Shown: piece by piece, positions 3,176-35,794 of the stretch
Numbering within the stretch: the stretch's first letter is position 1
How the letters are laid out: every line of letters begins with the position of its first letter
From: Mycobacterium sp. SVM_VP21
Lineage (GTDB): Bacteria > Actinomycetota > Actinomycetes > Mycobacteriales > Mycobacteriaceae
Assembly (NCBI GenBank): GCA_024758765.1
Contig: CP101406.1
Coordinates: 496,001 to 560,000 of the forward strand
DNA: 64,000 bases
Reading direction: 5' to 3'
The notes under the pieces: model-generated
What the model was told of the DNA's origin: nothing
Database searches by the model: none
Seen by the model: only the letters and a program-made list of their open reading frames with translations
Position numbers and translations under genes: made by a program

Positions 3176-4159
3176 TTAAGGTGCGTCGCGCAGCGCCGCC
3201 AGCAGCGGCTCTGCGGCCTCCTTGAGGAAGGCTTCCTGGGTCTCCCCGCCGATCTGGATCAGCGCGATGTCGGTGAAACCGGCGTCGCGGTAGGCGCCGA
3301 CGGCGTCGACGATTGCGTCCAGTTCCGGCCCACACGGTATGGCCCCGGCAACGTCGCGCGGCTGCACGTAGCGGGTGGCGGCCGCGAACGCCGCCGGTGT
3401 CGGCAGCTCGGAATTGACCGACCAGCCGCCGCCGAACCAGCGGAATTGCCGGTGGGCGCGCTGTATTGCCTTATCCCGGTCGAGATCCCAGCACACTGGT
3501 AACTGCCCGATGACGCGCCCACCCGCCAATCCGGCCGCCTGCCGTGCGGCGTGCCAGGACTGGACCAGATCCCGGTCGGGCTGCACCGCGATCAGGTGAT
3601 CGGCAGCCGCGGCGAATCTGTCGACGCCTTTGGGCCCCGACATGGCCACGGCCAACGCGACCGGGATGTCCGGCAGGTCCCAGAGCCGCGCCTGGTCGAC
3701 TTCGAAATGGTCGCCGTGGTGGTCAACCGTCTCCCCCATCAGCAGCTCGCGGATGATCTTGATGGCTTCACCGAGCATGGCTTGCCTGCGCACTACGTTC
3801 GGCCACCCCGCGCCCGTCACGATGTGCTCGTTGAGGTTCTCCCCGCTGCCCAGCCCCAGGGTGAACCGGCCCTCGGCCAGAATCTGCACGGTGGCAGCCT
3901 GCTGGGCCACGACCGCCGGGTGATAGCGCATCGTCGGGCAGGTGACGTAGCTGTAAAGGCCTATGTCTTGAGTGGCGTGCGCGACCGCGCCCAGCAGCGC
4001 CCACGCGTTGGGAGCGTGGCCCTGCGACACCAGCCACGGCGAAAAATGATCGCTGCACACCGCGAAGTCGAAACCGCGTTCCTCGGCGGCAACGGCGTAG
4101 CCGACCAGCTCTGCGGGCCCGCTCTGTTCGGTCATCAGGGTGTAGCCGAAGCGTGTCAT
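3176..4159 (-). CDS. LLM-class F420-dependent oxidoreductase
   Basis: The 327-residue protein belongs to the luciferase-like TIM-barrel family that uses deazaflavin F420 in mycobacteria. The N-terminus M-T-R-F-G-Y-T-L-M, the C-S-D-H-F block and the G-L-G-S-G-E-N-L-N-E-H glycine region near residue 105 are typical of the F420-dependent subgroup that includes glucose-6-phosphate dehydrogenase-like enzymes. The substrate is unknown. The open frame extends upstream to 4252, but ATG 4159 matches the family N-terminus and avoids the divergent gene. The TAA stop (3176-3178) abuts the tandem repeats. Confidence 0.85.
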   Translation of the reverse strand: MTRFGYTLMTEQSGPAELVGYAVAAEERGFDFAVCSDHFSPWLVSQGHAPNAWALLGAVAHATQDIGLYSYVTCPTMRYHPAVVAQQAATVQILAEGRFTLGLGSGENLNEHIVTGAGWPNVVRRQAMLGEAIKIIRELLMGETVDHHGDHFEVDQARLWDLPDIPVALAVAMSGPKGVDRFAAAADHLIAVQPDRDLVQSWHAARQAAGLAGGRVIGQLPVCWDLDRDKAIQRAHRQFRWFGGGWSVNSELPTPAAFAAATRYVQPRDVAGAIPCGPELDAIVDAVGAYRDAGFTDIALIQIGGETQEAFLKEAAEPLLAALRDAP

Positions 4160-4251
4160 GCTGCCGGAATACCCAACGGCCGACCACCGAAACGGCACGG
4201 CGCCGTTTGGCGCGGTCCCGGTGGCGGGTATCCGCAAGCGTGCGCACCGCA

Positions 4252-5247
4252 ATGATCCCCACCGAACCTCGACTGCCCGCCGCGTGCGGGCCGTTGTCTG
4301 CGACGGTGTGCGGCCTCTTGCGTCGGCCCGCCGGCGCGGCCGCTGAGCTCATCGCCCCGACCACCGGCACCGACCCGTACGGCCGCGACCTGCAACTGGC
4401 GCTCTACGTCTGCTACGAGTTGCATTACCGCGGGTTCGCCGATGTCGACCCCGGTTGGGAGTGGGACGCCACCCTATTGGGACTACGCACGCAACTCGAA
4501 CGCGCGTTCCTCGCCCGTGTGCGTCGCGATGTCGGAGTGATACCGCCAGACGCGACGGCCGATGCCGAAATGGATGCCGCGTCAACCGAGCCCGTGCACG
4601 GCGCCGGACCCTCGTGGTATCTGCGCGATCACGGCACCTGGGAGCAGGCTCGCGAGTACTTCGTCCACCGATCGCTGTACCACCTCAAGGAGGGCGATCC
4701 GCACGCCTGGATCATCCCGCGCCTGACCGGCCAGGCCAAGGCGTCGTTTGTCGCGGTCGAATTCGACGAGTACGGCGCCGGGCGGGGTCCGCGGGTGCAC
4801 CAGCAGCTCTTCGCCGACCTGCTCACCGCGGCCGGGCTGGATGCCGGTTACCTCGCCTACCTCGATGTTGTCCCTGCCGAGTCGCTGGCGGTGGTGAATC
4901 TGATGTCGCTGTTCGGGTTGCATCGCCGCTGGCGGGGTGCGGCCGCCGGACACTTCGCGGCCACCGAGATCACCTCACCTCCGGGCTCGAGCCGGTTGGT
5001 CGCGGCGCTGCGGCGGATGGGCGCGCCGGAGCCGTGCGTAGCGTTCTACGCCGAGCACGTCGAGGCCGACGCGGTACACGAGCAGGTGGTGCGCAATGAC
5101 GTGATCGGCCACCTGTTGGACGAGAATCCGCATTTGGAGACCGATGTCGTATTCGGTATCCGAGCTCTCGGCGCCGTGGAAAATCGGCTCGCCGACGTGA
5201 TGGCATCAGCCTGGTCAGCGGGGCGCTCGTCACTGCTCGGGACGTGA
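4252..5247 (+). CDS. Iron-containing redox enzyme family protein (heme-oxygenase-like fold)
   Basis: The roughly 331-residue protein resembles the HO-like helical, metal-binding proteins annotated as iron-containing redox enzymes (PqqC/CADD relatives). Candidate metal ligands are spread over conserved-looking blocks: E-Y-F-V-H-R-S-L-Y-H-L, V-A-V-E-F-D-E-Y-G, and H-V-E-A-D-A-V-H-E near the C-terminus, the last being a common His/Glu signature of this family. The start is not certain: ATG 4252 (M-I-P-T-E-P) is preferred, and GTG 4240 is possible; the frame continues further upstream into the divergent gene. The substrate cannot be told. Confidence 0.65.
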   Translation: MIPTEPRLPAACGPLSATVCGLLRRPAGAAAELIAPTTGTDPYGRDLQLALYVCYELHYRGFADVDPGWEWDATLLGLRTQLERAFLARVRRDVGVIPPDATADAEMDAASTEPVHGAGPSWYLRDHGTWEQAREYFVHRSLYHLKEGDPHAWIIPRLTGQAKASFVAVEFDEYGAGRGPRVHQQLFADLLTAAGLDAGYLAYLDVVPAESLAVVNLMSLFGLHRRWRGAAAGHFAATEITSPPGSSRLVAALRRMGAPEPCVAFYAEHVEADAVHEQVVRNDVIGHLLDENPHLETDVVFGIRALGAVENRLADVMASAWSAGRSSLLGT

Positions 5248-5333
5248 AAATTAAGGTTTCACTGGGATTTTCCAGAAATTGTCGGGCACCTCTTGGCCAA
5301 TCGCTGCGGGCCTCGGTAACGTCTGGTTTCTCC

Positions 5334-5433
5334 GGTTGAGTTCACAGCCGCAGTGAAACGTCACCGCGTAAACGCAGCCCCGGAAGTGATTACGTTGACG
5401 TGATCCAACAGCACGATTCGTCGACTGATGGAG
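5334..5433 (+). promoter_or_regulatory. Leader shared with the second STAS gene
   Basis: Two blocks in front of the STAS gene at 5441 recur in front of the STAS gene at 20523. GGTTGAGTTCACAGCC (5334-5349) matches GGTTGAGTTAACAGCC (20387-20402). TCGACTGATGGAG (5421-5433), which contains the GGAG ribosome-binding site, is identical to 20503-20515. The rest of both leaders differs. No GGGTA -10 box is visible, so the sigma factor is not known. Confidence 0.5.
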
Positions 5434-5440
5434 CCACAGC

Positions 5441-5878
5441 ATGACGATCAACAAGATTACTCAGAGCGCTTTTGCCACTCCGGCAACGGAAGCCACCCAA
5501 GTTTGGCGCAATCACACCGCCAAGTTCACCGTTCATTGGGGTCGCTCCGGAGCCGTCGTCGCCGTAGATGGAGAGATCGACGCGGCGAACGCCAGCCCAT
5601 TCGCGGACTATGCCAAACGGTGCGCCGAGTGCTGCGAATGGCTGGTGGTGGACCTATCTGAGCTGACATTCATTGGAACCACCGGATTTTCAGCTCTTCA
5701 GTCGATCAGCGCGCAGTGTTCCGGCGCGCAGACCAATCTGAAGGTGGTTCCGAGTCCCGCACTGTCCACTCTGCTGCGGATCTGCGATCCACACTCTCGG
5801 CTTCCGCTGGTGCCCTCGCTGAGGGACGCGTTGGCAGAGGTCCAACGGCCCGGTCGGCCGCTTCGCCTCGTCCCGTGA
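5441..5878 (+). CDS. STAS-domain anti-sigma factor antagonist
   Basis: This 145-residue protein is a single STAS domain of the anti-anti-sigma (RsbV/SpoIIAA) type, which binds an RsbW-type kinase in its unphosphorylated form and frees the sigma factor. The central strand-loop E-L-T-F-I-G-T-T-G-F-S-A-L near residue 75 is the phosphorylation loop, with Thr or Ser available. The stretch A-K-R-C-A-E-C-C-E-W-L-V-V-D is nearly repeated in the paralogue at 20523. GGAG in the leader sets ATG 5441. The gene converges on katE with 9 bp between stops. Which anti-sigma factor it serves is inferred, not shown. Confidence 0.85.
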   Translation: MTINKITQSAFATPATEATQVWRNHTAKFTVHWGRSGAVVAVDGEIDAANASPFADYAKRCAECCEWLVVDLSELTFIGTTGFSALQSISAQCSGAQTNLKVVPSPALSTLLRICDPHSRLPLVPSLRDALAEVQRPGRPLRLVP

Positions 5879-5887: not shown

Positions 5888-8014
5888 CTAGGCAGGAACC
5901 GCGTCGGCAGAGCGGTTCCAGGCGCGGTGCCCGGCGAGTGCAGCGGCGAACGCGTCGAAGAACTCGTCATTCAAGTCGTCGGCCGCGGCCGTCGTCGTCA
6001 CCAACCCGGAGGCGACGACGACCGCGGTGTCCTCGGCCGGTCGCTCGGAGATGCCGGCCTTGGGCAACAGTTTGACGCCTGCCCCGAACGCCCCGATCAC
6101 CTTGAGGTGCTTGTAGGCCTCCGCGACGAAGTGCACCGCATACCCATCGCCGGACAACGCCTCCACCGCGTCTGGCCCGCACGGCACGACCACCGCGTCG
6201 TAGAGCACCGACGCCATCGTCGTGAAGGCCCGGTCGACACCCAGTCGGCCGCCCGAACCCCCGGCCAGTTCACCGCCGGCGATCGGCGCCAGCACTTCGG
6301 CGATCGCGCCGCGTTCCCGCATCGCCGCGACGAACCGTTCGACACCCACCACGTCCACACCGTCGGCGGCCAGCACCGCGATCTTGCGGCTTTCGATGCC
6401 GGGCGGGTCCTCGTCGGCCGGGGTACCGGTGTCGCTCAGCTGCGAGAGCGCCGGCGACAGCACCACCTCGTCGACGGGCTTCTCGCCGGGCGCATCCAGG
6501 CCCAGTTTCTCGGCCACCTGGCGCGCCAGATCGTGGTCGACCATGTTCAGCTGTTCGACAGCGCGCTGCCGGATCTCGACGTGTTCGCATTTCCCCAGTT
6601 CAAAGGCGTAGGCGGCGACGATGTGTCTCGCTTCGGGCGCGGTCATACTTCGGTAGAACATCCGCGCTTGGCCGTAGTGGTTCTCGAAGCTCGCGGCGCG
6701 CTTGCGGATCTTGGCCCCGTCCACCTTCTCGGTGTAGTGCCGGAACACGCCCTCGTCCGCCAGGGCCGGGCAGCCACCGCCCAACGAATTCTTGTAGTAG
6801 CTGGACTTTCCCCGCGGTATCGCCTGTTGGCCGTAGCCGTCGTGCTGGTTGTTGCGTACCTGGGCCACCGGCCGGTTGATCGGCAACTGAGCAAAGTTCG
6901 GTCCACCGAGCCGGATCAACTGCGTATCCAGGTAGGAGAAGTTGCGGAACTGCAGCAACGGGTCGTTGGTGAAGTCGATTCCCGGCACGACGTTGGCCGT
7001 GCAGAACGCCACCTGCTCGGTTTCGGCGAAGAAGTTCTCCGGGTTGCGGTTGAGCACCATCTTGCCGACCGGGCGCACTGGAACCTGTTCTTCGGGAATG
7101 ATTTTGGTGGCGTCCAATAGGTCGAAGTCGAACTTGAACTCCTCGGCTTCGGCAACCAGCTGCACTCCAAGTTCCCATTCCGGAAATTGACCGGCCTCGA
7201 TGGCGTCCCACAGATCGCGCCGGTTGAAGTCGGGGTCCTTGCCGGCGATCTTCTGGCATTCGTCCCAGATCAGCGAATGCACGCCGAGCTTCGGCTTCCA
7301 GTGGAACTTCACGAACGTTCCTTCGCCGCTTGCATTCACGAAGCGGAAGGTGTGCACGCCGAAGCCCTGCATCATCCGGTAGCTGCGCGGCAGAGCACGG
7401 TCCGACATCAGCCACATGATGGCGTGCAGCGTCTCGGGCTGCAGCGACACGAAGTCCCACAGCGTGTCGTGAGCGGACTGGGCCTGCGGAATCTCGTTGT
7501 CCGGCTCTGGTTTCACCGCATGCACAAAGTCGGGAAACTTGATGCCGTCCTGAATGAAGAAAACCGGAAAGTTGTTGCCCACCAGATCGTAGTTGCCCGC
7601 CTCGGTGTAGAACTTGGTGGCGAATCCGCGTACGTCACGCACGGTGTCGGCCGAACCGCGCGAGCCGGCCACGGTGGAGAACCGCACGAACACCGGCGTC
7701 CTGGTGCCTGGCGTGGTCAGAAAGCGTGCCGCGGTGTACTGCGCAAGCGAGTCGTCATAGGGCTCGAAATAGCCGTAGGCGCCCGCCCCGCGGGCATGCA
7801 CCACGCGTTCGGGAATCCGCTCATGATCGAAGTGGGTGATCTTCTCCCGGGCGTGAAAGTCCTCCAGCAGCGTGGGCCCACGCTCACCGACCGTCAGTGC
7901 GTCGTCGGTGTGGTCGACGCGCACCCCCTGCTGAGTCGTGAGGTATCCGGACTGCCGGTCGAACCGGTAATCGTCGAGTTGTCGCTGCTTGCCGTCACGG
8001 TCCTCGGTAGCCAC
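5888..8014 (-). CDS. katE: Large-subunit (clade 2, HPII-type) catalase
   Basis: The 708-residue protein is a monofunctional heme catalase that disproportionates hydrogen peroxide. The catalytic distal His is residue 73 ([10 protein letters not shown]), the partner Asn is in G-N-N-F-P-V-F-F (147-148), and the proximal Tyr lies in R-N-F-S-Y-L-D-T-Q. After the core, residues from about 555 form the flavodoxin/DJ-1-like C-terminal domain typical of large-subunit catalases. GTG 8014 follows GAGAGGAAAA on the minus strand. A weak SigF-like promoter (8056-8080) lies upstream. This enzyme differs from KatG, the catalase-peroxidase mycobacteria mainly use. Confidence 0.95.
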
Positions 8015-8810: not shown

Positions 8811-9224
8811 CTATTTGCCGCGGACCCGGCGGTTGTGCTTCTTGATCGCCGTGACCAGTTCAGCTTTGCGCATCGTCGATCGTCCGTGAATGTCCAGCCG
8901 GCGGGCTACGTCCAGCAGATGCTGCTTGCTGGCGTTGGCGTCGACGCCCTCCGCAGACGGTCCGGAGTTGTTCGGACCGCCGCCGGCCGCGAGCTTGTCC
9001 GACGGGCCGCGCTTCTTCTTGGGTTCCCAGTGGTCCCCCACCTTCTCAAAACTGTGCTTCAGCGCGGCATAGGCGACTCGGTGCGCACGTTGCTCGCTGC
9101 CATATTCCTTGGCGGCGGCATCGTGCGCCTTGGCGAAGGTGCGCTGCGCCTTGGCGCCGGAGCGCTGTAGCGTGCTGGGCAGCTCGCCACGCTTAACGGT
9201 GCCGCTCTTCGTCGTCTTGGGCAT
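8811..9224 (-). CDS. ChaB-family protein with C-terminal Rho-N/SAP-like motif
   Basis: The 137-residue basic protein has a ChaB domain in its N-terminal half (L-P-S-T-L-Q-R-S, F-A-K-A-H-D-A-A near residues 15-75) and, at the C-terminus, a Rho-N-terminal-like helical motif (L-L-D-V-A-R-R-L-D-I-H-G-R-S-T-M-R-K-A-E-L). The latter often binds nucleic acid. A Gly/Ser/Pro linker separates them. GGAGG before ATG 9224 excludes the upstream M-Q-S-L extension. The cellular role of ChaB in actinobacteria is unknown; its stress-gene setting suggests a stress role. Confidence 0.8.
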   Translation of the reverse strand: MPKTTKSGTVKRGELPSTLQRSGAKAQRTFAKAHDAAAKEYGSEQRAHRVAYAALKHSFEKVGDHWEPKKKRGPSDKLAAGGGPNNSGPSAEGVDANASKQHLLDVARRLDIHGRSTMRKAELVTAIKKHNRRVRGK

Positions 9225-9296: not shown

Positions 9297-9806
9297 CTAC
9301 CATCCCGTCGGGTCGACCTGCAGTGGAACGCTCGCGGGCGCTGGCCTCGCTCGGTCGTCATCCTGAATGACCGCCAGCGGGCATTGGCAGCGTGGCGTCA
9401 ATGCCGCACCGACCGAGCCCGACAATAGATGCCGCAGCCGTCGACGGCCGCTTGATCCGACGACAACCAGATCGGCTTGTCGGGACAAATCAGCCAGCAC
9501 GTCAACCGGATCGGTAAACACCACCTTGGCCTTCAGTTGCGCCGGCACGGCGCCACGGCCACTGTCACTGGCGACGTCGACGGCGTCATCGACGATCCGT
9601 TGCACGCGCCGATGCGGCAATTCGTGTTGGCCGAACACGATCCGTCGGGCCATCAGAGGTGATAACTGGGTCGAGGCCGCGTGCACCAGAGTGAGTGGTA
9701 ACGCACGGCGGTCAGCTTCCTGGGCTCCCCAGCGCACAGCGGCCCGAGACGCCGAGGATCCGTCGACGCCGACCACGATTCCGGCACTTGCAGTATTCGA
9801 AGCCAT
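9297..9806 (-). CDS. Universal stress protein, single Usp domain
   Basis: The 169-residue protein has the Usp fold with the N-terminal strand G-I-V-V-G-V-D-G-S and the ATP-binding signature G-x2-G-x9-G-S (V-V-V-G-S-S-G-R-R-R-L-R-H-L-L-S-G-S), so it is expected to bind ATP. Start ATG 9806 (M-A-S-N-T-A-S-A-G) fits the family; the frame continues upstream without support. No Shine-Dalgarno is seen, and a SigF-like promoter (9819-9843) would place the transcript start nearly on the ATG. Confidence 0.9.
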   Translation of the reverse strand: MASNTASAGIVVGVDGSSASRAAVRWGAQEADRRALPLTLVHAASTQLSPLMARRIVFGQHELPHRRVQRIVDDAVDVASDSGRGAVPAQLKAKVVFTDPVDVLADLSRQADLVVVGSSGRRRLRHLLSGSVGAALTPRCQCPLAVIQDDDRARPAPASVPLQVDPTGW

Positions 9807-9818
9807 AAAGACGGAGGT

Positions 9819-9843
9819 TAACCAGCGCGTCCTGCAGTCAAAC
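9819..9843 (-). promoter_or_regulatory. SigF-like promoter before the universal stress gene
   Basis: Minus strand GTTT (9843-9840), 16-bp spacer, GGTTA (9823-9819), one mismatch to GGGTA. Twelve bases separate it from ATG 9806, consistent with a leaderless or nearly leaderless message. Confidence 0.45.
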
Positions 9844-10193
9844 CCCGCGTCGTTCGTCGATCGGTTGCCCCAGTTTGTAAGGCTTTTCGCCGTCGACGGG
9901 CTGACCGGTCTACTGCAAGCCATCACCGGTATGGGCTAGGCGGCGGCCGTGCACGACGTTGCGCAGCATCCGATCGACGATCCCACCCGCATCGCCGATC
10001 CACTGCGCATGACCACCCGCCGCGCGCCGGATTCGCCTGTCCCCAACAACATCATCTGCGCACCTCGTTCCGTTCGCCGATGTCCCACCGAATGCCGGCA
10101 GCACCCCGCTTCCGTCGCGACCAAACGCCATTTGGCTTCCGCACGACCCTCAGGTTTCGAGAGCGGTCGAAAGGGGAACTGATGGGGGTACAG
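9844..10193. other. Intergenic stretch without a supported gene
   Basis: The 387 bp between the universal stress gene and the small membrane gene hold the usp promoter, a possible SigF-like promoter at 10153-10178 and an open plus-strand frame (9949-10182) with no ribosome-binding site and no recognisable protein. I see no RNA gene or repeat. Confidence 0.5.
10153..10178 (+). promoter_or_regulatory. Possible SigF-like promoter before the small membrane operon
   Basis: GGTTT (10153-10157), 16-bp spacer, GGGAA (10174-10178). The -10 differs from GGGTA at one base; the same GGGAA variant appears before the CsbD gene. Confidence 0.35.
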
Positions 10194-10714: not shown

Positions 10715-11671
10715 ATGACCGTCGCTGCCGACGCTGATCGCGGCACCTTCAAACACATTGCGTTGTTCTACCGGTCGCCGCAGGAGTACCTGGACTACCT
10801 GGTGCCATTCATCACCGATGGCGTAGCCCTAGGCCTTCCCATCTTGGTGGCGGTGCCTGAACCCAACCTCTCGCTGCTACACGGTGCACTCCCCGCAGAC
10901 GCAGTAGAAGCTGTGGCTCTGGCCGACATGAACCAAGTGGGACGCAACCCCAGCCACATCCTGGGCGGTGTGTTCGGTACCTTCGCCGCTCGGCACCCGT
11001 CCGGACGGGTCCAGATGGTCGGCGAGCCGGTCTGGAGCAGTCGATCAAAGCCGGAGTATCCGGCCTGCGTGCAGCACGAGGCACTGGTCAATGAGGCATT
11101 CACTGGCCGGGAAATCACGGTGGTCTGCCCTTACGATGCAACACATTTGGATTCCCACATTCTCATCGACGCCGAGATCACCCACCCGAGTTTGGGCCGC
11201 TGCGGGCAGCCAGAGCGCACCAGCTCCGGCTTCGCTCCCGAGACCGCGTGGGCGCGCTACAACGAACCGCTGCCCAGTAGCCCGACCGCGGCAAGCTACA
11301 CACTGCGCAGACTTGCCGATCTGGCCGGCGCCCGACAATTCGCCGCCAGGTACGCGCGCTGGTTCGGCGTCGCCGACGCCGACATCGCAGATCTGCAGTT
11401 GATCGTCAACGAGCTGGCATCTAACAGCCTGCAGCACGGTCGCGGTCCGCGTGCCCTGCTGTTGTGGGAGGCGGGCGACCAATTGATCTGCCAGGTACGC
11501 GATGCCGGCCACCTCACCGACCGGCTTGCTGGACGCAGGCCAATCATCGGCGGCTATGCCGACGGGTGCGGGCTGTTCGTGGTCAACGCAACCGCGGAAC
11601 TGGTGCGTATTCACACCACAGCAAGCGGAACCACGGTACAGGCGCATCTGCGGATGAGGAAGTCCACGTGA
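10715..11671 (+). CDS. MEDS-domain anti-sigma regulatory protein with HATPase domain
   Basis: The 318-residue protein has an N-terminal MEDS (MEthanogen/methylotroph, DcmR Sensory) domain (F-K-H-I-A-L-F-Y-R-S-P-Q-E-Y, residues about 8-170) and a C-terminal RsbW-type HATPase_c domain with the N-box L-I-V-N-E-L-A-S-N-S-L-Q-H-G and a V-R-D-A-G box. This arrangement is the sensor/anti-sigma type that phosphorylates STAS antagonists. ATG 10697 (M-T-G-A-R-A) is an alternative start. The stop TGA overlaps the ATG of the next STAS-like gene (TGATG), so the pair is translationally coupled and probably works as a complex. Confidence 0.85.
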   Translation: MTVAADADRGTFKHIALFYRSPQEYLDYLVPFITDGVALGLPILVAVPEPNLSLLHGALPADAVEAVALADMNQVGRNPSHILGGVFGTFAARHPSGRVQMVGEPVWSSRSKPEYPACVQHEALVNEAFTGREITVVCPYDATHLDSHILIDAEITHPSLGRCGQPERTSSGFAPETAWARYNEPLPSSPTAASYTLRRLADLAGARQFAARYARWFGVADADIADLQLIVNELASNSLQHGRGPRALLLWEAGDQLICQVRDAGHLTDRLAGRRPIIGGYADGCGLFVVNATAELVRIHTTASGTTVQAHLRMRKST

Positions 11672-11988
11672 TGGGCGCCTACCGCGCGGACAGGTCGGGC
11701 GAATTCGGCCACATCGGCGGGGAATTTTTGTATCGTGCGGCCGAGTACCTCGCAGACGGTCTGAACCTCGACCAGCGAGTCACCTATGTCGGCGCGGACG
11801 ACCCGCACGACACCCTCGAGATCGACGCTCGCGAGCTGGAGTTCATCGGGCATCGGCAGCTTTGCCTGCTCGACCGCTGCTGCGCCGCCCACGGCCGAAA
11901 GGCCATGCTGCGCAGCGACCGAGCAGTTGTGCATCGACTGGTCAACCTCCTCGGCTTCGCCAACGTCCACATCGAGGCGACGGCGTGA
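11671..11988 (+). CDS. Degenerate STAS-like protein coupled to the MEDS-HATPase
   Basis: The 105-residue product has the shape of a STAS domain (D-A-R-E-L-E-F-I-G-H-R-Q-L-C-L-L followed by V-V-H-R-L-V-N-L-L-G-F). Where the STAS proteins at 5441 and 20523 have F-I-G-T-x-G-F-S-A-L, this one has F-I-G-H-R-Q-L-C-L-L, so the loop lacks the phosphorylatable Ser/Thr. Its start overlaps the upstream stop by one base, and GAGGA (11656-11660) provides a ribosome-binding site. A constitutive antagonist or structural partner of the MEDS-HATPase is my inference. Confidence 0.7.
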   Translation: MGAYRADRSGEFGHIGGEFLYRAAEYLADGLNLDQRVTYVGADDPHDTLEIDARELEFIGHRQLCLLDRCCAAHGRKAMLRSDRAVVHRLVNLLGFANVHIEATA

Positions 11989-13004: not shown

Positions 13005-13017
13005 CTCCACCTCCTAG

Positions 13018-23054: not shown

Positions 23055-23065
23055 GTCGGTGTAGG

Positions 23066-27460: not shown

Positions 27461-27901
27461 GACCTCTCCTTTCTGTGCTGCAGTCAGGTCCCCCGGTAGC
27501 GACCCGCATACCCGGCTGCCCGGTCCCACAAACGAAGCGGTGTAGCAAGCCAATTGCGGGGGTACCCCGCCGTAATGGATTGGCGGACCGGACGCGTTGC
27601 TCCGGTTATAGGCGCGCTCATGTGTCGGCCGCTCGCCGATCTTCTTGCACGCCACCATCCCGGCGTGCCATCGACCACCGGGCCGGCCTACCGTCCGGGC
27701 CGGCCCGGTCCGCACCACTGCCCGGCAACCGGCAGCGCAGCAGTAATACAGCGCCCGCCAGCGTGAGCAGTGGTACGTGCGGTTCCCGGCAGCGTCTCTC
27801 GCCCAACCAGCGGGGAGCGGCTGGATTGCCGCGACGGCCACGGTTACCGCCACGGCAATCCAGCCGATGGGTATCCCGGCTGCGGTCTATGAAGCCATCC
27901 T
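27461..27901. other. Intergenic stretch, no gene supported
   Basis: The 441 bp between the pfpI-type gene and the TB8.4-type gene hold the SigF-type promoter at 27508-27533 and a short palindrome GGGGTACCCC at about 27557-27572. Open frames on both strands here have no ribosome-binding site and no recognisable protein. Confidence 0.5.
27508..27533 (-). promoter_or_regulatory. SigF-type promoter before the pfpI operon
   Basis: Minus strand GTTT (27533-27530), 16-bp spacer, GGGTAT (27513-27508): a full match to the mycobacterial SigF pattern. Leader of about 40 bases to ATG 27460. Confidence 0.75.
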
Positions 27902-28464: not shown

Positions 28465-29136
28465 GTGATTACTCGAATCCTCACCGTGGTGGGCCTGTCG
28501 AGTTGCGCGCTGCTGTGCTGGCCGGGCCCCGGCGAAGCGGCCGCATCCGGATGCCCCGACATTCAAGTCGTGTTCGCTCGCGGCACCGGGGAACCGCCCG
28601 GTGTCGGCTGGATGGGCCAGCAGTTCGTCGACGCACTACGGTGGCGCACCTGGGGACGCACCGTGGACGTTTACCCGGTCGACTTTCCCGCCGTGCCCGA
28701 ATTCGGTCCCTCCGCTGCGGGTGTCAGCGATGCAGCCGACCACATCCGCGACACGGTGGCGAGTTGCCCGAGCACCCAAATGGTCCTCGGCGGATATTCA
28801 CGTGGCGCGGCCCTGATCGGATACCTCACCGAACCGAGCGCCAGACTCGGGGCACCGTTAGCACCCGCTGCGGCCGACCACGTCGCCGCGGTGGCGCTGC
28901 TGGGAAGGCCATCAGCGGCGTTCCTGAACTCCATCGGCGCTCCGCCGCTGGAGATCGGTTCGGGCTACACCGGCAAAACGATCGACCTGTGCGCGCCGGG
29001 TGATCCAGTCTGCTCGGTGGGCGGTGACGGTGCCGCGCATGCGGCATACGCGGCCAACGGAATGACGGCACAAGCGGCGGACTTCGCCGTCGACCACCTC
29101 AGGCCACCCGAAAGCGTTCCAGATCAACCGCTTTGA
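28465..29136 (+). CDS. Secreted cutinase-family esterase
   Basis: The 223-residue protein has a signal peptide (V-I-T-R-I-L-T-V-V-G, cleavage near G-E-A-A-A-S-G) and a cutinase domain close to that encoded at 22353: D-I-Q-V-V-F-A-R-G-T-G-E-P-P-G-V, nucleophile in G-G-Y-S-R-G-A-A-L, and C-A-P-G-D-P-V-C-S...H-A-A-Y for Asp and His. It acts outside the cytoplasm on lipid esters. The longer frame from 28327 would bury the signal peptide, so GTG 28465 is chosen. Confidence 0.88.
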   Translation: MITRILTVVGLSSCALLCWPGPGEAAASGCPDIQVVFARGTGEPPGVGWMGQQFVDALRWRTWGRTVDVYPVDFPAVPEFGPSAAGVSDAADHIRDTVASCPSTQMVLGGYSRGAALIGYLTEPSARLGAPLAPAAADHVAAVALLGRPSAAFLNSIGAPPLEIGSGYTGKTIDLCAPGDPVCSVGGDGAAHAAYAANGMTAQAADFAVDHLRPPESVPDQPL

Positions 29137-29380: not shown

Positions 29381-30883
29381 ATGACCTCGTTGTGGCTTGC
29401 CGACCGGATCGCAACATCACCGGCTTCGGGCACCGCTGAAGATCTGCCCGGTATCGCCGACGTGGTGGTGGCCGGTGCCGGTATCACCGGTCTGATGACC
29501 GCGGTGCTACTGGCACGCGCAGGCCGCCAAGTGCTGGTGCTGGAGGCCAGGACGGTCGGAGGCTGCGCGACCGGCAACACCACCGCCAAAATCAGCCTGC
29601 TGCAGGGCACCCAGCTGTCGACGATCTCGGCGAAGCAGGGCAAGAGCCTGGCCGCTGCATACCTGGACGGCAACCGCACCGGACAGGACTGGCTGCTGTC
29701 GTTCTGCGCGGCTACCGGAGTGCCGGTCCAGCGCGAGGACGCCTACAGTTTCGCCCAGTCTGAGCGTGGGGTGGCGGCAGCGCGCGCCGAGTTCGAGGCC
29801 TGCCGGGCACTGGGGCTGCCGGCAACCTGGGAGGCGCACGCCGACGTGCCGTTTGACTACCACGGCGGTGTCCGACTGGGCGAACAGGCACAGTTCGACC
29901 CGATGCCGCTTCTCGACGCACTGCGCGCCGAACTGCTCACCAGCGGTGGACAACTGCTGGAACACACTCGGGTGCAGCGTGTTTCCACCAACCGTCGCGG
30001 CCTTCGGCTAGAAGTCGACGGCCCGCACCGGCACGCCGAACTGCAGGCCACCCACCTGGTGCTGGCCACCGGAATCCCGATCTTGGACCGCGGCGGATAC
30101 TTCGCCCGCGTCAAACCCAGCCGGTCATACTGCATGGCTTTCGACGTGCCCGGCGAGGTCACCCGCCCCATGATGATCTCCACCGATTCACCGACGCGCT
30201 CGCTGCGCTATGCCCCGGTCGACGGCTCAGAACTACTCCTGGTCGGCGGGGCCGGGCACACCGTCGGCCGCGAAAAGCACCCGATCGACGCGCTAGCCGA
30301 ACTCGAGTCATGGGCGGTCAGGCATTACCCGGGCGCCACCCGCACGCACCTGTGGTCAGCGCAGGACTACGCGCCCATCGGCGAGCTGCCCTATGTCGGT
30401 CCTATCCTTCCGGAGAACGACACCATCTACGTGGCAACCGGTTTCAACAAATGGGGCATGACCAACGGGGCCGCCGCTGCCCTCGCATTGTCGGGCCGGC
30501 TGCTTGGCGAGCGGCCGCCGTGGGACCGGGCGTTCGCGAGCTGGAGAACCGGTGAGCTACGTGGACTGCCGGCGGCGGCGGCCAATCTTGCGGTCGGCGT
30601 CCACCTGGCGAAAGGCTGGATCACGCCGACGGCCCACGTCGGCCAGCAGTGCCTGGGCACGGACGCCGGCGTGGTCAGCGGGCCACCGTGGCGCCTGCAG
30701 GCCCACTGCCGAGTGGACGGTGTCGAACACCGCCTCTCCCCGGTCTGCCCCCACCTGGGTGGCATCGTCACCTGGAACGACGCCGATCGAGCCTGGGAGT
30801 GCCCGCTGCACGGATCACGCTTCACCCCCGACGGGACCCTTCTGGAAGGCCCGGCCACCCGCGGGCTGGCCGCCAGCAGCTGA
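29381..30883 (+). CDS. FAD-dependent oxidoreductase fused to a Rieske [2Fe-2S] domain
   Basis: The 500-residue protein has an N-terminal DAO-type FAD domain (V-V-V-A-G-A-G-I-T-G-L near residue 30; V-G-G-C-A-T-G-N-T-T) and a C-terminal Rieske domain with ligands in C-P-H-L-G-G and C-P-L-H-G-S-R-F (about 460-490). Bacillus and actinobacterial proteins of this layout (YhfW type) are oxidoreductases of unknown substrate. The single chain joins flavin and iron-sulfur centres. The SigF-type promoter implies stationary-phase or stress expression. Confidence 0.9.
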   Translation: MTSLWLADRIATSPASGTAEDLPGIADVVVAGAGITGLMTAVLLARAGRQVLVLEARTVGGCATGNTTAKISLLQGTQLSTISAKQGKSLAAAYLDGNRTGQDWLLSFCAATGVPVQREDAYSFAQSERGVAAARAEFEACRALGLPATWEAHADVPFDYHGGVRLGEQAQFDPMPLLDALRAELLTSGGQLLEHTRVQRVSTNRRGLRLEVDGPHRHAELQATHLVLATGIPILDRGGYFARVKPSRSYCMAFDVPGEVTRPMMISTDSPTRSLRYAPVDGSELLLVGGAGHTVGREKHPIDALAELESWAVRHYPGATRTHLWSAQDYAPIGELPYVGPILPENDTIYVATGFNKWGMTNGAAAALALSGRLLGERPPWDRAFASWRTGELRGLPAAAANLAVGVHLAKGWITPTAHVGQQCLGTDAGVVSGPPWRLQAHCRVDGVEHRLSPVCPHLGGIVTWNDADRAWECPLHGSRFTPDGTLLEGPATRGLAASS

Positions 30884-30971: not shown

Positions 30972-31292
30972 GTGTGCATCATCGACCATGCCATGCGTCA
31001 GATCGTCGAGAGCGCAAAGCTGGCGTTCGTGGCCACCGTCTGCGACGACGGTTCGCCGAACCCGTCACCGAAGGAGTCCCTGCCGGTCTACGGGGACGAG
31101 CACCTGGCATTCATGCACATGGCGTCGCCGACGACGGCGGCCGATCTGCGCCGCGACCCGCGCATTGAGGTCAATGTGGTGGACTTCCTCAAACGGCGCG
31201 GCTACCGATTCAAGGGCACCGCACAGTTGCGACCGCCCGGCGACGAGGTCTACGAGTGGCTGCGGCAGGCAGTGGGGACCACAAGCGGATGA
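30972..31292 (+). CDS. Short PPOX-type flavin-binding protein, possibly truncated
   Basis: The 106-residue product matches the pyridoxamine 5'-phosphate oxidase-like split-barrel family (K-L-A-F-V-A-T-V, D-G-S-P-N-P-S-P-K-E-S-L, V-N-V-V-D, R-R-G-Y-R-F-K-G-T-A). It ends where relatives have 30-40 more residues. The next frame (+1) stays open to 31353 and reads D-E-F-G-F-V-G-I-A-E-H-V, so a frameshift near 31280 is possible. ATG 30993 is an alternative start. Convergent with sigF. Confidence 0.6.
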   Translation: MCIIDHAMRQIVESAKLAFVATVCDDGSPNPSPKESLPVYGDEHLAFMHMASPTTAADLRRDPRIEVNVVDFLKRRGYRFKGTAQLRPPGDEVYEWLRQAVGTTSG

Positions 31293-31359: not shown

Positions 31360-32148
31360 CTACTGCAGCTGATCGCGCAGCTTCGCCAGCGATTTAGCCA
31401 GCAAGCGCGACACGTGCATCTGCGAGATGCCGACCCGCTCGGCGATCTGAGTCTGGGTCATCGACTCGAAGAACCGCAACACCAGCACTGTTCGTTCCCG
31501 CTCCGGAAGGGCGTCCAGCAAGGGCCGCAACGCCTCTCGGTCCTCGATACGGTCCATCCGGGCGTCGACCTCACCGAGGGTGTCAGCGATCGAGCGGACG
31601 TCGTCCTCGTCCGAGCTGCCGCCGCCGTCAATCGACAGCGTGTTGTACGAGCTGCCCGCGACCAGCCCTTCGACCACCTCATCGCGGCTCAACTCGAGCT
31701 CGGCCGCGAGTTCGGAGGCGGTCGGCGCGCGCCCCAGGCGTTGGGAAAGTTCGGCCGTGGCCACCCCCAACCGCAGGTGTAGCTCTTTGAGCCGGCGGGG
31801 CACTTTGACCGACCAGCTGTTGTCGCGGAAGTGGCGGCGGACCTCGCCCATGATCGTCGGCACCGCGAACGAAACGAAATCCGAGCCGGTCTCGACGTCG
31901 AAGCGTGTCACGGCGTTGACCAGACCCACCCGGGCTACTTGGACCAGGTCGTCGCGCAACTCTCCGCGGCCCTCGAATCGGCGAGCAATGTGGTCGGCCA
32001 ACGGCAGACACCGCTCCACGATCTTGTCTTTGCGGTTACAAAAGTCGGGCGAATCGGCATCGTATTGGGCTAGTTCCCGAAACATATCGCCGACATCGGA
32101 ATACTCCGATCCGGACTGTGAGCCGCTGCCGGCGGCACGCGGAGTCAC
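31360..32148 (-). CDS. sigF: RNA polymerase sigma factor SigF
   Basis: The 262-residue sigma factor is of the SigB/SigF group 3 type. Region 2 (L-A-D-H-I-A-R-R-F-E-G-R-G, D-L-V-Q-V-A-R-V-G-L-V-N-A), region 3 and the region 4 helix-turn-helix (T-Q-T-Q-I-A-E-R-V-G-I-S-Q-M-H-V-S-R-L) are complete. It directs stationary-phase and stress transcription from GTTT/GGGTA promoters, which abound in this window. GTG 32148 overlaps the rsbW stop (GTGA), so the two are translated together. Very close to M. tuberculosis SigF. Confidence 0.97.
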   Translation of the reverse strand: MTPRAAGSGSQSGSEYSDVGDMFRELAQYDADSPDFCNRKDKIVERCLPLADHIARRFEGRGELRDDLVQVARVGLVNAVTRFDVETGSDFVSFAVPTIMGEVRRHFRDNSWSVKVPRRLKELHLRLGVATAELSQRLGRAPTASELAAELELSRDEVVEGLVAGSSYNTLSIDGGGSSDEDDVRSIADTLGEVDARMDRIEDREALRPLLDALPERERTVLVLRFFESMTQTQIAERVGISQMHVSRLLAKSLAKLRDQLQ

Positions 32149-32582
32149 CGTCTGGAGTCCGCCCGGCGGGTTGTCAGCGTGACCCCGAATACCTCACCCG
32201 CATTGTCGGATTCATGCGCACCGCGGAATGTCTGGACATCATCGACCAGCGAAGTCAGCACGTGCCAGCTGAAACTTCCCGGAGTCAGTACACCCGCCCC
32301 ATCACCGGCAGCCGACGCCTGGATCGTCACGTGGTCGTCATGCGGGTCGATGACGACTGTCAGCATTGCGCCGGGTGCCGCGCTCCGGATCAGCTGGGTG
32401 CAAAGCTCATCGATCGCCAACCGCAGATCAGAGACGGTGTCGACATCAAGGTCCTCGTAGGTGGCGATCGCACCGACCAACATGCGCACCACCGCCAGGC
32501 TTTCCAACCTGGGCGTAACCCGCAGTTCGACGGCCCGTTCGCTGCACGATCGCTGAGCCCGGTCACTGTCAATGTCGGTCAT
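32145..32582 (-). CDS. rsbW: Anti-sigma-F factor RsbW (UsfX)
   Basis: The 145-residue protein is the HATPase-fold anti-sigma factor that binds SigF. The N-box region reads L-R-L-A-I-D-E-L-C-T-Q-L, with Thr in place of the usual Asn, as is common in the mycobacterial protein. Length equals that of M. tuberculosis UsfX. GGAGG precedes ATG 32582. The order usfY-rsbW-sigF on the minus strand is the conserved mycobacterial operon. STAS antagonists encoded elsewhere in the window are candidate partners. Confidence 0.94.
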   Translation of the reverse strand: MTDIDSDRAQRSCSERAVELRVTPRLESLAVVRMLVGAIATYEDLDVDTVSDLRLAIDELCTQLIRSAAPGAMLTVVIDPHDDHVTIQASAAGDGAGVLTPGSFSWHVLTSLVDDVQTFRGAHESDNAGEVFGVTLTTRRADSRR

Positions 32583-32843: not shown

Positions 32844-33155
32844 TTAACTTGTGGAGGGCTGCTCGCGCATCTCGGCGTGTGCCAGATGCCACTGATGGTT
32901 CACTTTGCCGATCCGGCGATGCTCGACCAGCAGCCACACCGTGCCCAGAGCGGCGGCGAGCACCGCGATGATCGCGACCTCCACGCCCTGACGATCGTGA
33001 CCGGTCCCAAACGCGGCTAGGCAGCCGATACCAGCCACCATGCCCACCACCAGCAGTGAGTAGCCCGGCCAACCCATGACGTCGATCATGGCGCGGCCCG
33101 CATGGGGCCGAGTCGTCCGGACATGGTCGACCGGGTCATGAAACGTGTCGCCCAT
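32844..33155 (-). CDS. usfY: UsfY membrane protein
   Basis: The 103-residue protein matches UsfY: M-G-D-T-F-H-D-P-V-D-H-V-R-T-T-R-P, then two hydrophobic segments (about 28-50 and 60-80) and E-H-R-R-I-G-K. Its role is unknown; it is encoded upstream of rsbW-sigF in mycobacteria. GGAGGAGG precedes ATG 33155. A strong hairpin after the gene suggests that most transcription of rsbW-sigF starts separately. Confidence 0.92.
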   Translation of the reverse strand: MGDTFHDPVDHVRTTRPHAGRAMIDVMGWPGYSLLVVGMVAGIGCLAAFGTGHDRQGVEVAIIAVLAAALGTVWLLVEHRRIGKVNHQWHLAHAEMREQPSTS

Positions 33156-33855: not shown

Positions 33856-34095
33856 ATGTCGGACGACAAGAGCAGCGCTACCGAAGACGGCATCCGCGGC
33901 ACCGTGGAGGGCGTCAAGGGCAAGGCCAAGGAAGCGTTAGGGGCCGTGACCGGCAACGACGAGCTGGCCCGCGAGGGCCGGGCGCAGCAGGACAAGGGCG
34001 AAGCGCAGCGCGACGCCGCGAAGCACCAGGCCGAGGCCGAATCGGCCCGAGCGGGTGCGAAGGCAGCCGAGGCGCGCGAACAGTCTCACCAGTAG
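33856..34095 (+). CDS. CsbD-family stress protein
   Basis: The 79-residue protein has the CsbD motif (G-T-V-E-G-V-K-G-K-A-K-E-A-L-G-A-V-T-G) and a charged, Ala/Glu-rich helical tail (K-H-Q-A-E-A-E-S-A-R). CsbD proteins are small general stress proteins controlled by SigB in Bacillus; the function is unknown. GAAGGGAGGG precedes ATG 33856. The frame upstream of this ATG is not supported. A terminator hairpin follows. Confidence 0.88.
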   Translation: MSDDKSSATEDGIRGTVEGVKGKAKEALGAVTGNDELAREGRAQQDKGEAQRDAAKHQAEAESARAGAKAAEAREQSHQ

Positions 34096-34226: not shown

Positions 34227-34901
34227 ATGGAGATCATGTTACTGACCGGCCGCGACGCATTCGCGCGGTCACTGTCTGGGTTGGGTGTCTTCGGCCATTC
34301 GATCGTCCGCAGTCCACTGGCACTCACCGCGCGAGCCGACTGCCGTGGGGCGACAGCCGTTCTGGTGGACGGCTGTGCTGACGTGCCGACCGCGAAGGAG
34401 AGCTGCCGCAAACTCGGAGTCTGGGAGCCGTCGGCTGCCGTGCTGGCCGTCGTTGCCGCCGAGAACTTCGCCGCGGTCGGTCTCGATTGGCACGTCGATG
34501 ATGTTCTGATCGCGACCGCAGGCCCCGCGGAGGCGAACGCTCGGCTGCGACTGGCCCTAGCCCGTCGGCGCGAATCCACCCACAACACGCTGCAATTCGG
34601 CGCCTTGGTCATCCACCCGGACAGTTTCACCGCGTCGCTGTCGAATCGCGATCTTGACCTCACACTCACCGAATTCAAACTGCTCAACCATCTGGTACAG
34701 CATGCCGGCCAAGCATTCACGCGTGCCCGGCTGCTGCGTGAGATATGGGGCGGCGAGGGTGGCCGCCGCAAAGTCGACGTTCACGTGCAGCGATTGCGCG
34801 CCAAGCTCGGCGCCGACCACGAGTCGATCGTCGATACCGTTCGCGGTGTCGGCTACATGACACCGGAGTTGCCTCAATCGCAATGGGCCATCGCCAACTG
34901 A
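34227..34901 (+). CDS. Orphan GlnR-type winged-helix response regulator
   Basis: The 224-residue protein matches the actinobacterial GlnR family: a receiver-like domain (about 1-105) and an OmpR-type winged helix (about 125-215; D-L-T-L-T-E-F-K-L-L, K-V-D-V-H-V-Q-R-L-R-A-K-L-G). The receiver has an Asp at the equivalent position (A-V-L-V-D-G), but the acidic pair after strand 1 and the strand-5 lysine of phosphorylated receivers are absent, as in GlnR. The wing and recognition helix are intact. GGAG lies eight bases before ATG 34227. It is probably a paralogue of the nitrogen regulator; its targets are unknown. Confidence 0.85.
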   Translation: MEIMLLTGRDAFARSLSGLGVFGHSIVRSPLALTARADCRGATAVLVDGCADVPTAKESCRKLGVWEPSAAVLAVVAAENFAAVGLDWHVDDVLIATAGPAEANARLRLALARRRESTHNTLQFGALVIHPDSFTASLSNRDLDLTLTEFKLLNHLVQHAGQAFTRARLLREIWGGEGGRRKVDVHVQRLRAKLGADHESIVDTVRGVGYMTPELPQSQWAIAN

Positions 34902-34915
34902 GAAAGCCAAATGCC

Positions 34916-35239
34916 ATGACAGAACAACCCGATTCCGATTCGGCGGCCACCGACACCACCGGCGACGACACGCTGCCGCCGAGTGAGGCCACCGACTCCG
35001 ACGAGCTGCGCAATGACGACGGCGACGCCACTGTCACCCCACCGGACAATTGGCAAGCCGCTGACAGCGCGACCGCTTACGAGTCGTTGGACGCCAAGCT
35101 GGCAGCCGAGCAACCCGAGGACGCGGGCACTGGCCACGATCCCGATGACGTTGTCGGAGCTGTTGGAGGCGGTCGACACCGCGCACAGGTATCTGGAAGT
35201 CCCGAAGACGGCGACTCGTTCTTCGCTGTCGAGGAGTGA
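34916..35239 (+). CDS. Small acidic protein downstream of the GlnR-type gene
   Basis: The 107-residue protein is highly acidic and probably disordered (D-S-D-S-A-A-T-D-T-T-G-D-D), with recognisable blocks E-S-L-D-A-K-L-A-A-E-Q-P, D-P-D-D-V-V-G and the C-terminus G-S-P-E-D-G-D-S-F-F known from small mycobacterial/actinobacterial stress-locus proteins resembling DUF5709. ATG 34916 lies 14 bp after the regulator stop, so they are likely one operon. Function unknown. Confidence 0.7.
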   Translation: MTEQPDSDSAATDTTGDDTLPPSEATDSDELRNDDGDATVTPPDNWQAADSATAYESLDAKLAAEQPEDAGTGHDPDDVVGAVGGGRHRAQVSGSPEDGDSFFAVEE

Positions 35240-35292
35240 ACTCAGTAGTAGTTGTCGCAGCGATCCCCTCTGCAGATCCGCCACTGGGTCCG

Positions 35293-35688
35293 TCAAAACA
35301 TCAGGACCAAAACCCCCAAGTCGGCCAGCAGTAGCGCCCACCCGCACGCCCAGACCACGATCCCGCGGCGATGCGTCGCCAGGAAGAAGGCGAGGAACAG
35401 CGTCAGCGCAGCTACGCCAGCCGCTCCGTGATAGAGCACGCCGAACAGTGGCCCGTTCACCTTGAGCTCCGGGCACGCCGCCCGGTTACACAGCGCGGAG
35501 CCGGAGACCCTGGCCAGCGCGAATGCCATGAGCAGTGCGGCGGCCGGCGCGGTCAGCAGCGACAGTGCCCAGTTGGCCCACGTCCAATCGCGGGGCAGCG
35601 CTTCGGACGGCGCAGCGCCTGCCGCGCGCGGTTGCGCATCGGCGAAGATCGGCCGGACTGCCGTCACACCGTCATCCAGAATGATCAT
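35293..35688 (-). CDS. Four-helix membrane protein with paired cysteines
   Basis: The 131-residue paralogue of the protein encoded at 26544 has a polar N-terminus (M-I-I-L-D-D-G-V-T-A-V-R), then four transmembrane segments with C-x4-C-P-E-L in the loop after the first. GGAGGCGGGG precedes ATG 35688; the frame upstream is not coding. A full SigF-type promoter lies 36 bp upstream. Both paralogues have a SigF promoter, which supports a stress role in the membrane. Confidence 0.8.
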   Translation of the reverse strand: MIILDDGVTAVRPIFADAQPRAAGAAPSEALPRDWTWANWALSLLTAPAAALLMAFALARVSGSALCNRAACPELKVNGPLFGVLYHGAAGVAALTLFLAFFLATHRRGIVVWACGWALLLADLGVLVLMF

Positions 35689-35723
35689 CCCCCGCCTCCG
35701 ATCACCGACATCACCGTTGCCGG

Positions 35724-35749
35724 ATACCCGGCGACGACGAGCACAAAAC
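35724..35749 (-). promoter_or_regulatory. SigF-type promoter before the membrane protein gene
   Basis: Minus strand GTTT (35749-35746, preceded by G), 16-bp spacer, GGGTAT (35729-35724): a full match to the SigF pattern. Confidence 0.75.
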
Positions 35750-35794
35750 CGCAGCGCGGGAGCGCTCCGGCTCCACACTTGGCACCATGGCTGG

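Follow-up and report, generated by a model that had tools for sequence, protein, structure and literature searches.

Alternative-sigma-factor regulons are normally regarded as scattered. The closest described system to the locus treated here is that of Mycobacterium smegmatis, where the cluster MSMEG_1766-1804 at sigF comprises tens of genes, many of them SigF-dependent there and with promoters of the type GTTT-N15-17-GGGTA, and also has ChaB, UsfY, a methylase and RsbW homologues (PMC4694148, in the portions available); it has been termed a 'stress response gene cluster' (PMC5445863, likewise in part). In the switch that governs SigF in the same organism, RsbW1 holds SigF, RsfB and RsfA act as antagonists, RsbW2 phosphorylates RsfB and RsbW3 antagonises RsbW1 (excerpts of PMC7693655), and the RsbW3 and rsfA genes sit inside the cluster (excerpts of PMC7693655 and PMC4694148). 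Here we consider a 64-kb stretch of DNA, referred to as the window, from Mycolicibacter, in which sigF and the directly adjoining gene of its anti-sigma factor, rsbW, lie in a 33.5-kb island between accA3 (end 2331) and lhr (start 35795). As the probable explanation we propose that the SigF general-stress regulon was consolidated specifically in Mycolicibacter, and the locus would then be a case of a dispersed bacterial regulon turning into a neighbourhood, in one group of environmental mycobacteria.

The window resembles the M. smegmatis cluster in that many genes with SigF sites stand beside sigF, and it resembles the mycobacterial RsbW1/2/3-RsfA-RsfB system in that a relative of RsbW occurs together with STAS proteins. 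Beyond that system, it has a MEDS-HATPase with an intact N-box, a STAS-HATPase and a degenerate STAS protein inside the island. The arrangement is different from that in M. smegmatis, where the cluster, by the locus numbers in the portions available, lies on the chaB/rsbW side of sigF, with MSMEG_1807 close on the other side. This acetyl-/propionyl-CoA carboxylase gene we take to be accA3. In the window, the bulk of the genes lies between sigF and accA3, and chaB, at 22 kb from sigF, is not contiguous with rsbW and sigF. Gene content seems largely different, judged by the names alone in the portion of the table available, and the SigF-dependent 'methylase' MSMEG_1771 is possibly, again by name only, the counterpart of the methyltransferase (MTase) of the window. 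A SigF-dependent cluster adjacent to sigF is known already, then, from M. smegmatis, and what is new is the relocation history, together with a variant that has other genes and occupies the opposite side of sigF. Consolidation of the SigF regulon at sigF in Mycolicibacter was not found in the open-access literature searched, and the parts of PMC6917791 examined contain no sigF-linked regulon.

That the window comes from Mycolicibacter, with M. heraklionensis as the nearest genome compared, is indicated by its SigF: identity is 99% with the Mycolicibacter heraklionensis protein and 90-97% with the proteins of the other 11 Mycolicibacter loci (L002, counted among them, is filed as Mycobacterium sp. 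UM_WGJ). In a tree of SigF, AccA3 and Lhr, which retained 56 of 81 rows and of whose columns M. talmoniae fills 11%, the window stands beside M. heraklionensis within the Mycolicibacter clade (SH-aLRT 99).

A strict SigF site is defined as GTTT-N15-17-GGGTA. The window has 13 such sites, 12 of them between accA3 and lhr. An earlier note, made from the sequence of the window, had listed ten close and six weaker promoters in this region. Nine of the ten are strict sites, while the one at 34156 is GGTT-N16-GGGTA; five of the six weaker ones recur before orthologous starts in Mycolicibacter, while for the one at 10153 no target was found. Missing from that list were the strict sites 2942(-), just beyond its range, 4170(-) and 4205(+), and a GGTT site, 9260(-), before chaB. 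Since GTTT-N-GGGTA is short, and since a control with the reversed pattern gives 6-43 matches per genome over 20 genomes, one might take the sites for matches that arose by chance in intergenic DNA, which is AT-richer. When the accA3-lhr intervals of nine Mycolicibacter (376,043 bases) are taken together, however, 105 sites have spacers of 15-17 (38, 60 and 7 at 15, 16 and 17), and the nine other three-base spacer bins have 0-6 sites each. On the same intervals, half-site patterns permuted in 79 ways gave a mean of 4.2 matches, with a maximum of 37 for TTTG-GGGTA, which we read as the same sites shifted by one base. By these controls chance is refuted for the strict sites, and the conservation of their positions despite divergence of the spacers, described below, also speaks against it; its probability is next to nothing. 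A matrix scan of the window at a score of at least 14 gave 26 hits in the island, some of them counted twice because they match in two registers, and 2 hits in the remaining 30.5 kb, with 2.25 expected from a Markov model. At a score of 9 the island had 81 hits where 41 are expected, from which follows that weak matrix matches are largely noise.

For the genes of the island, the DNA 5' of the orthologues in the window and in up to eight other Mycolicibacter was searched with the wider pattern G[GT]TT-N14-17-GGGTA. A site precedes every orthologue of cutinase 2 (9/9), luc (8/8, window included), the DUF1942 protein (7/7), the FAD-Rieske oxidoreductase, hemerythrin and the small protein at 35293 (6/6 each) and the PNPOx-fold protein (3/3), and it precedes most orthologues of the HO-like iron-containing redox enzyme, the GlnR-type regulator and MTase (7/8 each), of the glycosyltransferase (GT) and PfpI (6/7 each) and of ChaB (5/8). 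The distance from site to start is mostly near-constant among orthologues, and the spacers have diverged while GTTT and GGGTA were kept, as for cutinase 2 in 9/9. Weaker forms recur in the same way, the window included: GTTT-N16-GGATA before katE (6/6), GTTT-N16/17-GGGAA before csbD (8/8), GTTT-N16-GGTTA before usp (3/4) and GTTT-N16-GGGCA before cutinase 1 (8/8). For rsbW, G[AG]TT-N16-GGGTA is present in 9/9 at a varying distance, and the wider pattern in 3/9; the latter is also found before 1/5 orthologues of UdgX and 2/5 of OrnDC. The wider pattern is absent 5' of the orthologues of accA3, lhr, sigF, nei2, MEDS-HATPase, STAS, STAS-HATPase, GAF-ANTAR and PAS-ANTAR, the last with one weak matrix hit, and also of HAD, MFS, esterase, katE and usp, of which katE and usp have the weaker forms just given. 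From this follows that many of the effectors, and almost none of the regulators, have strict sites. In five of 13 promoters GGGTA lies 10-13 nt 5' of the start codon, from which we infer leaderless or nearly leaderless messages. Sites at conserved places 5' of genes are what the promoter motif of a SigF regulon would be predicted to look like, and the SigF dependence of the island genes may be supposed on this ground.

How strongly the sites are concentrated at sigF was counted in the genomes of eight Mycolicibacter relatives. G001 and G022, the latter bearing the M. heraklionensis locus, were treated as one genome, their motif totals being equal; G025 and G031, where accA3 and sigF are on different contigs, were left out of the interval counts, and the end of the M. 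algericus interval was set by hand, lhr being outside the DNA taken. The numbers of strict sites in the interval and in the genome are 14/39 for M. heraklionensis, 16/41 for UM_WGJ, 10/38 for M. icosiumassiliensis, 17/43 for M. kumamotonensis, 16/42 for M. algericus, 4/29 for MYC098, 7/26 for MYC017 and 9/21 for M. arupensis. An interval that makes up 0.25-1.34% of the genome thus holds 14-43% of its strict sites, an enrichment of 20- to 102-fold (binomial p 9e-7 to 4e-22). The corresponding numbers outside Mycolicibacter are 3/38 in M. shimoidei, 1/72 in Mycobacterium sp. SCH5900713 (G034), 1/66 in M. asiaticum, 3/42 in M. litorale and 1/64 in M. hippocampi. A comparison of motif density, named in the earlier note as the test that could refute it, therefore places the island far above the rest of the genome in all eight relatives, and the dense, non-random island of SigF promoters beside sigF, with an anti-sigma factor, STAS and HATPase proteins and stress effectors, is confirmed. 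The same note's term 'self-contained' module is too strong, because 57-86% of the strict sites of the eight genomes are outside the island and because the MEDS-HATPase, STAS and ANTAR genes are without a strict promoter. Some of the outside sites must be background, since the reversed pattern gives 7-28 matches per genome in the eight Mycolicibacter. When this background is subtracted, the island accounts for 50-59% of the remaining sites in four genomes (in M. heraklionensis, 14 out of 39 less 12), for 37% in MYC017 and for 27% in MYC098. The subtraction is unusable in M. icosiumassiliensis and M. arupensis, because the control matches there are as many as, or more than, the sites outside the island.

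The gene order at sigF differs between Mycolicibacter and the other mycobacteria. In 62 of 68 non-Mycolicibacter loci, accA3 and sigF are 133-6529 bp apart (median 598); the other six (L017, L043, L054, L065, L067, L074) have no accA3 in the DNA taken, and three of these, L043, L065 and L067, have full flanks and stand as exceptions or undecided cases. Eight Mycolicibacter carry the two genes on a single contig, 9.5-58.3 kb apart, and in the window the distance is 29.0 kb, where about 28 kb had been estimated. To call this an insertion, as the earlier note did, is justified relative to other mycobacteria, where accA3 lies 0.13-6.5 kb from sigF in those 62 of 68 loci, but at least part of what was inserted is SigF genes of the lineage itself that moved in. 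The genes shared by M. kumamotonensis and M. heraklionensis have an identical order, from which follows that a large island was present in their common ancestor; MYC098, MYC017, M. arupensis and the window have ordered subsets of the island genes, which we read as probable later loss. In M. icosiumassiliensis luc and accA3 are separated by a 37-kb block (G024 C2 ~1553000-1589000; L090-L092). Among the eight of its open reading frames (ORFs) that were scanned are those of two phage-integrase proteins and a Mutator transposase, along with P450 and acyl-CoA genes, and the counterpart of small ORF 2646 is in two pieces, one on each side of the block. This block adjoining accA3, the range of lengths from 9.5 to 58 kb and the island genes that are without strict SigF sites would all be expected if the sigF-accA3 gap were a neutral hotspot that tolerates insertion of any genes, SigF genes among them. 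Neutral insertion would not, however, over-represent SigF sites 20- to 102-fold, nor would it favour SigF genes that were formerly elsewhere in the same lineage, and we judge a hotspot to be improbable as the explanation.

Where such genes were formerly is best seen for the HO-like gene. It has one orthologue in each of ten non-Mycolicibacter genomes, which is away from sigF in nine (in seven on another contig), while the M. talmoniae contig does not reach far enough to place it relative to sigF. In M. asiaticum and M. gordonae it is surrounded by luc, PfpI, MTase, PAS-ANTAR, STAS-HATPase, GT and CsbD, and the stretches read, 58 kb in the former and 40 kb in the latter, contain nine and eight strict sites; this cluster, found in the present analysis, has these genes and SigF sites in common with the island and is on a contig other than that of sigF, whereas Mycolicibacter has the genes at sigF. 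The same flank genes enclose luc, MTase and HO-like in M. asiaticum, G034, M. litorale and M. deserti; this place is here called the home site, and PfpI is inside it only in M. asiaticum and G034. The outer flanks are 11.8-53.7 kb apart in these four genomes, and between the inner flanks there are, in the same order, 8 strict sites (47.9 kb), 6 (23.7 kb), 3 (13.8 kb) and 1 (6.2 kb). In Mycolicibacter, on the other hand, the flanks are 6.4-9.4 kb apart in six of ten genomes (G022, G023, G024, G025, G028, G031) and on different contigs in G026, G027 and G030, the inner flanks of G027 being still together. Ten home-site stretches from eight Mycolicibacter genomes (G026 and G030 not included) contain no match to an island gene and no strict site, and the home site is closed in seven of the ten genomes, G026 and G030 being unread and G029 rearranged. 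HO-like has a single match, with no second copy, in nine of ten Mycolicibacter and none in MYC098, and it lies 1.5-1.9 kb from accA3 in eight of the nine; in M. icosiumassiliensis the integrase/transposase block intervenes. In the HO-like and FAD-Rieske trees Mycolicibacter forms one clade (99 and 100) adjoining M. talmoniae, as it does in the core-gene tree (99), which is vertical descent for both genes. From the closed home site and the single copy of HO-like follows, for this one group, that native SigF genes were moved to sigF, and the vertical gene tree agrees with such a relocation.

The same trees bear on the notion of a horizontally acquired genomic or mobile island that brought its own sigma factor. 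The GC content of the island is 65.8%, against 68.5-68.8% in its flanks, and its content is variable. Among the ORFs scanned in the island of the window there is, however, no integrase, transposase or tRNA; the core-gene, HO-like and FAD-Rieske trees are compatible, and HO-like is without a second copy. On these three grounds the mobile island is rejected, and we give it very little probability.

The island genes that were traced have SigF promoters in other mycobacteria too, where most of them are not at sigF. The FAD-Rieske gene has a G[GT]TT-N14-17-GGGTA site immediately 5' of its start in 11/11 genomes and is off the sigF stretch in eight of ten non-Mycolicibacter genomes, about 0.4 Mb from sigF in M. 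asiaticum and M. hippocampi and on another contig in six. Hemerythrin has a SigF site in 12/12 loci examined from 11 genomes (16 matches were found, of which four were left unexamined), and it adjoins UdgX in two relatives. Relocation of gene groups other than luc/MTase/HO-like is likely. With confidence only a little above even, we hold that at least three groups (luc/PfpI/MTase/HO-like, FAD-Rieske and hemerythrin) moved to sigF in the Mycolicibacter ancestor, and that the larger islands unite about half of the above-background strict promoters and their switch in about 1% of the chromosome.

Several observations weigh against the consolidation as we propose it. The closed home site is shown for one gene group only, and in G029 its flanks are 215 kb apart. 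For HAD, MFS, esterase, MEDS and other island genes, none of the orthologues tested has a strict site. M. asiaticum and M. gordonae have a SigF cluster of their own away from sigF, so that being clustered is not in itself unique. Several Mycolicibacterium-side lineages have CsbD, GT, PAS-ANTAR and UsfY-like genes adjoining sigF on its lhr side, so that part of the linkage may be old and not moved. In M. talmoniae, FAD-Rieske, PAS-ANTAR, STAS-HATPase and GAF-ANTAR are already no more than about 13 kb from sigF, from which follows that the process predates Mycolicibacter or is shared. Mycobacteria are divided into slow and rapid growers, and these observations can be taken further, to a large ancestral cluster at sigF that Mycolicibacter kept and the slow growers scattered. 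Such an old linkage would account for the lineages with CsbD, GT, PAS-ANTAR and UsfY-like genes adjoining sigF, for FAD-Rieske adjoining it in M. litorale, and for the largely SigF-dependent MSMEG_1766-1804 at sigF in M. smegmatis (PMC4694148, in the portions available). Against it speak the home flanks of HO-like, MTase and luc, since M. asiaticum and G034 share them with M. litorale and M. deserti and the tree places these two pairs on either side of Mycolicibacter, and also the position of the Mycolicibacter island on the accA3 side of sigF while the genes of the other lineages are on the lhr side. We consider it unlikely, though the most serious of the alternatives.

Under consolidation, SigF-controlled genes that are scattered in relatives would have been relocated, promoters included, into the sigF-accA3 gap in the Mycolicibacter ancestor, and subsequent losses and insertions would have brought the gap to the 9.5 to 58 kb of living species. 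In the usual mode, RsbW would hold SigF until STAS antagonists free it under stress, and RNA polymerase with SigF would then fire the GTTT-N15/16-GGGTA promoters in front of the stress effectors, redox and envelope genes among them.

Among the listed regulators RsbW alone has an established SigF role, and none of the tests made links the others to SigF. As an HATPase, RsbW scores 26.7 bits, under Pfam's own cut-off, but the earlier assignment stands, the identity being secured by PDB 8ih8_C (E 5.5e-49), an RsbW to which it is closely related. Pfam also confirms the STAS proteins at 5441 and 20523, MEDS-HATPase, PAS-ANTAR, GAF-ANTAR and SigF and, among the effectors, catalase, Usp, hemerythrin, PfpI, CsbD, FAD plus Rieske and Hsp20, with UdgX confirmed through NCBIfam. 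Of the STAS-HATPase the STAS half passes Pfam and the HATPase half does not, and the protein read as degenerate STAS (E 7e-4) falls short of the cut-off. The N-box of HATPase proteins bears on their kinase activity. In the window its Asn is replaced by Gln in RsbW, and it is missing from all RsbW orthologues read, with Gln or Leu in eight Mycolicibacter and Arg in 73/73 others, which fits an anti-sigma factor that would be without strong kinase activity. The MEDS-HATPase, which has no PDB relative at E 0.1, keeps both the Glu and the Asn in 7/7, as the only one of the three HATPase proteins, and is a candidate for the kinase arm. At the position where SpoIIAA-type antagonists are phosphorylated, the two antagonist-type STAS proteins carry Thr, in 8/8 and 7/8 Mycolicibacter. 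The extra STAS and HATPase proteins are in this way offered as candidates for SigF control. A STAS gene is also near sigF in 63 of 68 non-Mycolicibacter loci (L013-L080) and is likely a SigF antagonist.

Because one family shows both the scattered and the gathered state, and a donor site is closed, it becomes possible to count gains and losses and their direction. If the consolidation is true, the locus is a natural test of selection for target genes near their regulator; clustering may have a benefit, and whether proximity to sigF alters the timing of the stress response, or its noise, can be tested directly. The locus also supplies conserved, footprinted SigF-type promoters beyond M. tuberculosis and M. 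smegmatis. The features of the island and its borders are collected in Table 1.

Table 1. Features of the sigF island of the window and its two border genes
Feature	Position	Strand	Evidence and promoter site
accA3, left border	538..2331	+	gene call; single orthologue in each of 20 genomes searched
small ORF	2646..2930	-	strict SigF site 11 nt 5' of start (site ends 2942)
luc, F420-dependent LLM-class oxidoreductase (TIGR03557)	3176..4159	-	strict site 4170-4193
HO-like iron-containing redox enzyme (Haem_oxygenas_2)	4306..5247	+	strict site 4205-4230
STAS antagonist-type protein 1	5441..5878	+	Pfam; Thr at phospho-acceptor place (IGTTG)
catalase katE	5888..8014	-	Pfam; GTTT-N16-GGATA site
ChaB	8811..9224	-	GGTT-N16-GGGTA site at 9260(-)
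Usp	9297..9926	-	Pfam; GTTT-N16-GGTTA site at 9819
MEDS-HATPase	10715..11671	+	Pfam; E-x-x-x-N N-box
degenerate STAS	11671..11988	+	E 7e-4, under Pfam's own cut-off; without Ser/Thr at acceptor place
Hsp20	12582..13010	-	Pfam
MerR/HspR-like regulator	13140..13541	+	divergent from hsp20; start picked by eye
MTase	13990..14685	-	Pfam; orthologues with site 10 nt 5' of start in 4/8
small ORF	14692..14955	-	27 nt downstream of strict site 14983-15006
UdgX-family uracil-DNA binding protein	15001..15675	-	NCBIfam
DUF1942 (MPT63-like) protein	15752..16231	-	strict site at 16302
PAS-ANTAR	16502..17170	+	Pfam
STAS-HATPase	17243..18025	+	STAS half by Pfam; HATPase half by eye
GAF-ANTAR	18035..18802	-	Pfam
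GT	19246..20241	-	strict site at 20252
STAS antagonist-type protein 2	20523..20957	+	Pfam; IGTAG at acceptor place
cutinase 1	22353..23072	-	GTTT-N16-GGGCA site at 23066
hemerythrin	24457..24987	-	Pfam; strict site at 25031
PfpI/DJ-1 protein	26891..27475	-	Pfam; strict site at 27509
cutinase 2	28465..29136	+	strict site 28427-28451, 13 nt 5' of start
FAD-Rieske oxidoreductase	29381..30883	+	Pfam; strict site 29347-29370, 10 nt 5' of start
PNPOx-fold protein	30972..31292	+	strict site 30900-30923
sigF	31360..32148	-	Pfam
rsbW, anti-SigF	32145..32582	-	PDB 8ih8_C; GATT-N16-GGGTA site at 32734
UsfY	32844..33155	-	NF041247
CsbD	33856..34095	+	Pfam; GTTT-N16-GGGAA site at 33766
GlnR-type regulator	34227..34901	+	GGTT-N16-GGGTA site at 34156
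small protein, hydrophobic by eye	35293..35688	-	no Pfam match; strict site at 35725
lhr helicase, right border	35795..40255	+	Pfam

The small ORFs 2646..2930 and 14692..14955 are present in 7/8 (split in two pieces in one) and 5/8 other Mycolicibacter regions. The true start of Usp probably lies 3' of the 9819 site. The hsp20 gene and the HspR-like MerR gene form a divergent pair inside the island (12582-13541), which is probably under its own control, since it has no strict SigF site; a 311-aa MerR gene across 12606-13541 was dismissed, as Hsp20 is on the opposite strand at 12582-13010 and the MerR gene is shorter. A search of the 64-kb window with Rfam at the gathering level gave 0 families.

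The gap between luc and HO-like (4159-4306) has two back-to-back SigF sites, one for each gene, with their GTTT boxes 11 bp apart, and the pair is also listed in G001, G027 and G030. The thirteenth strict site of the window, 41576-41600(-), is beyond nei2, outside the island, and has no called gene downstream; a site of the same sequence is found in G001 (C23:20178). At 18869-19270 there is a short glycosyltransferase remnant, and since UM_WGJ and M. kumamotonensis carry about 830 bp extra at window position 19110, the remnant looks internally deleted. A plasmid search with cutinase 1 returned three records with partial cutinase matches. The FAD-Rieske orthologues of M. talmoniae and M. parafortuitum (L129, L130) have one in-frame stop each, with the SigF site kept. 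The two small proteins at 26544-26894 and 35293-35688 are paralogue-like by eye, and one of them has a conserved strict SigF site.

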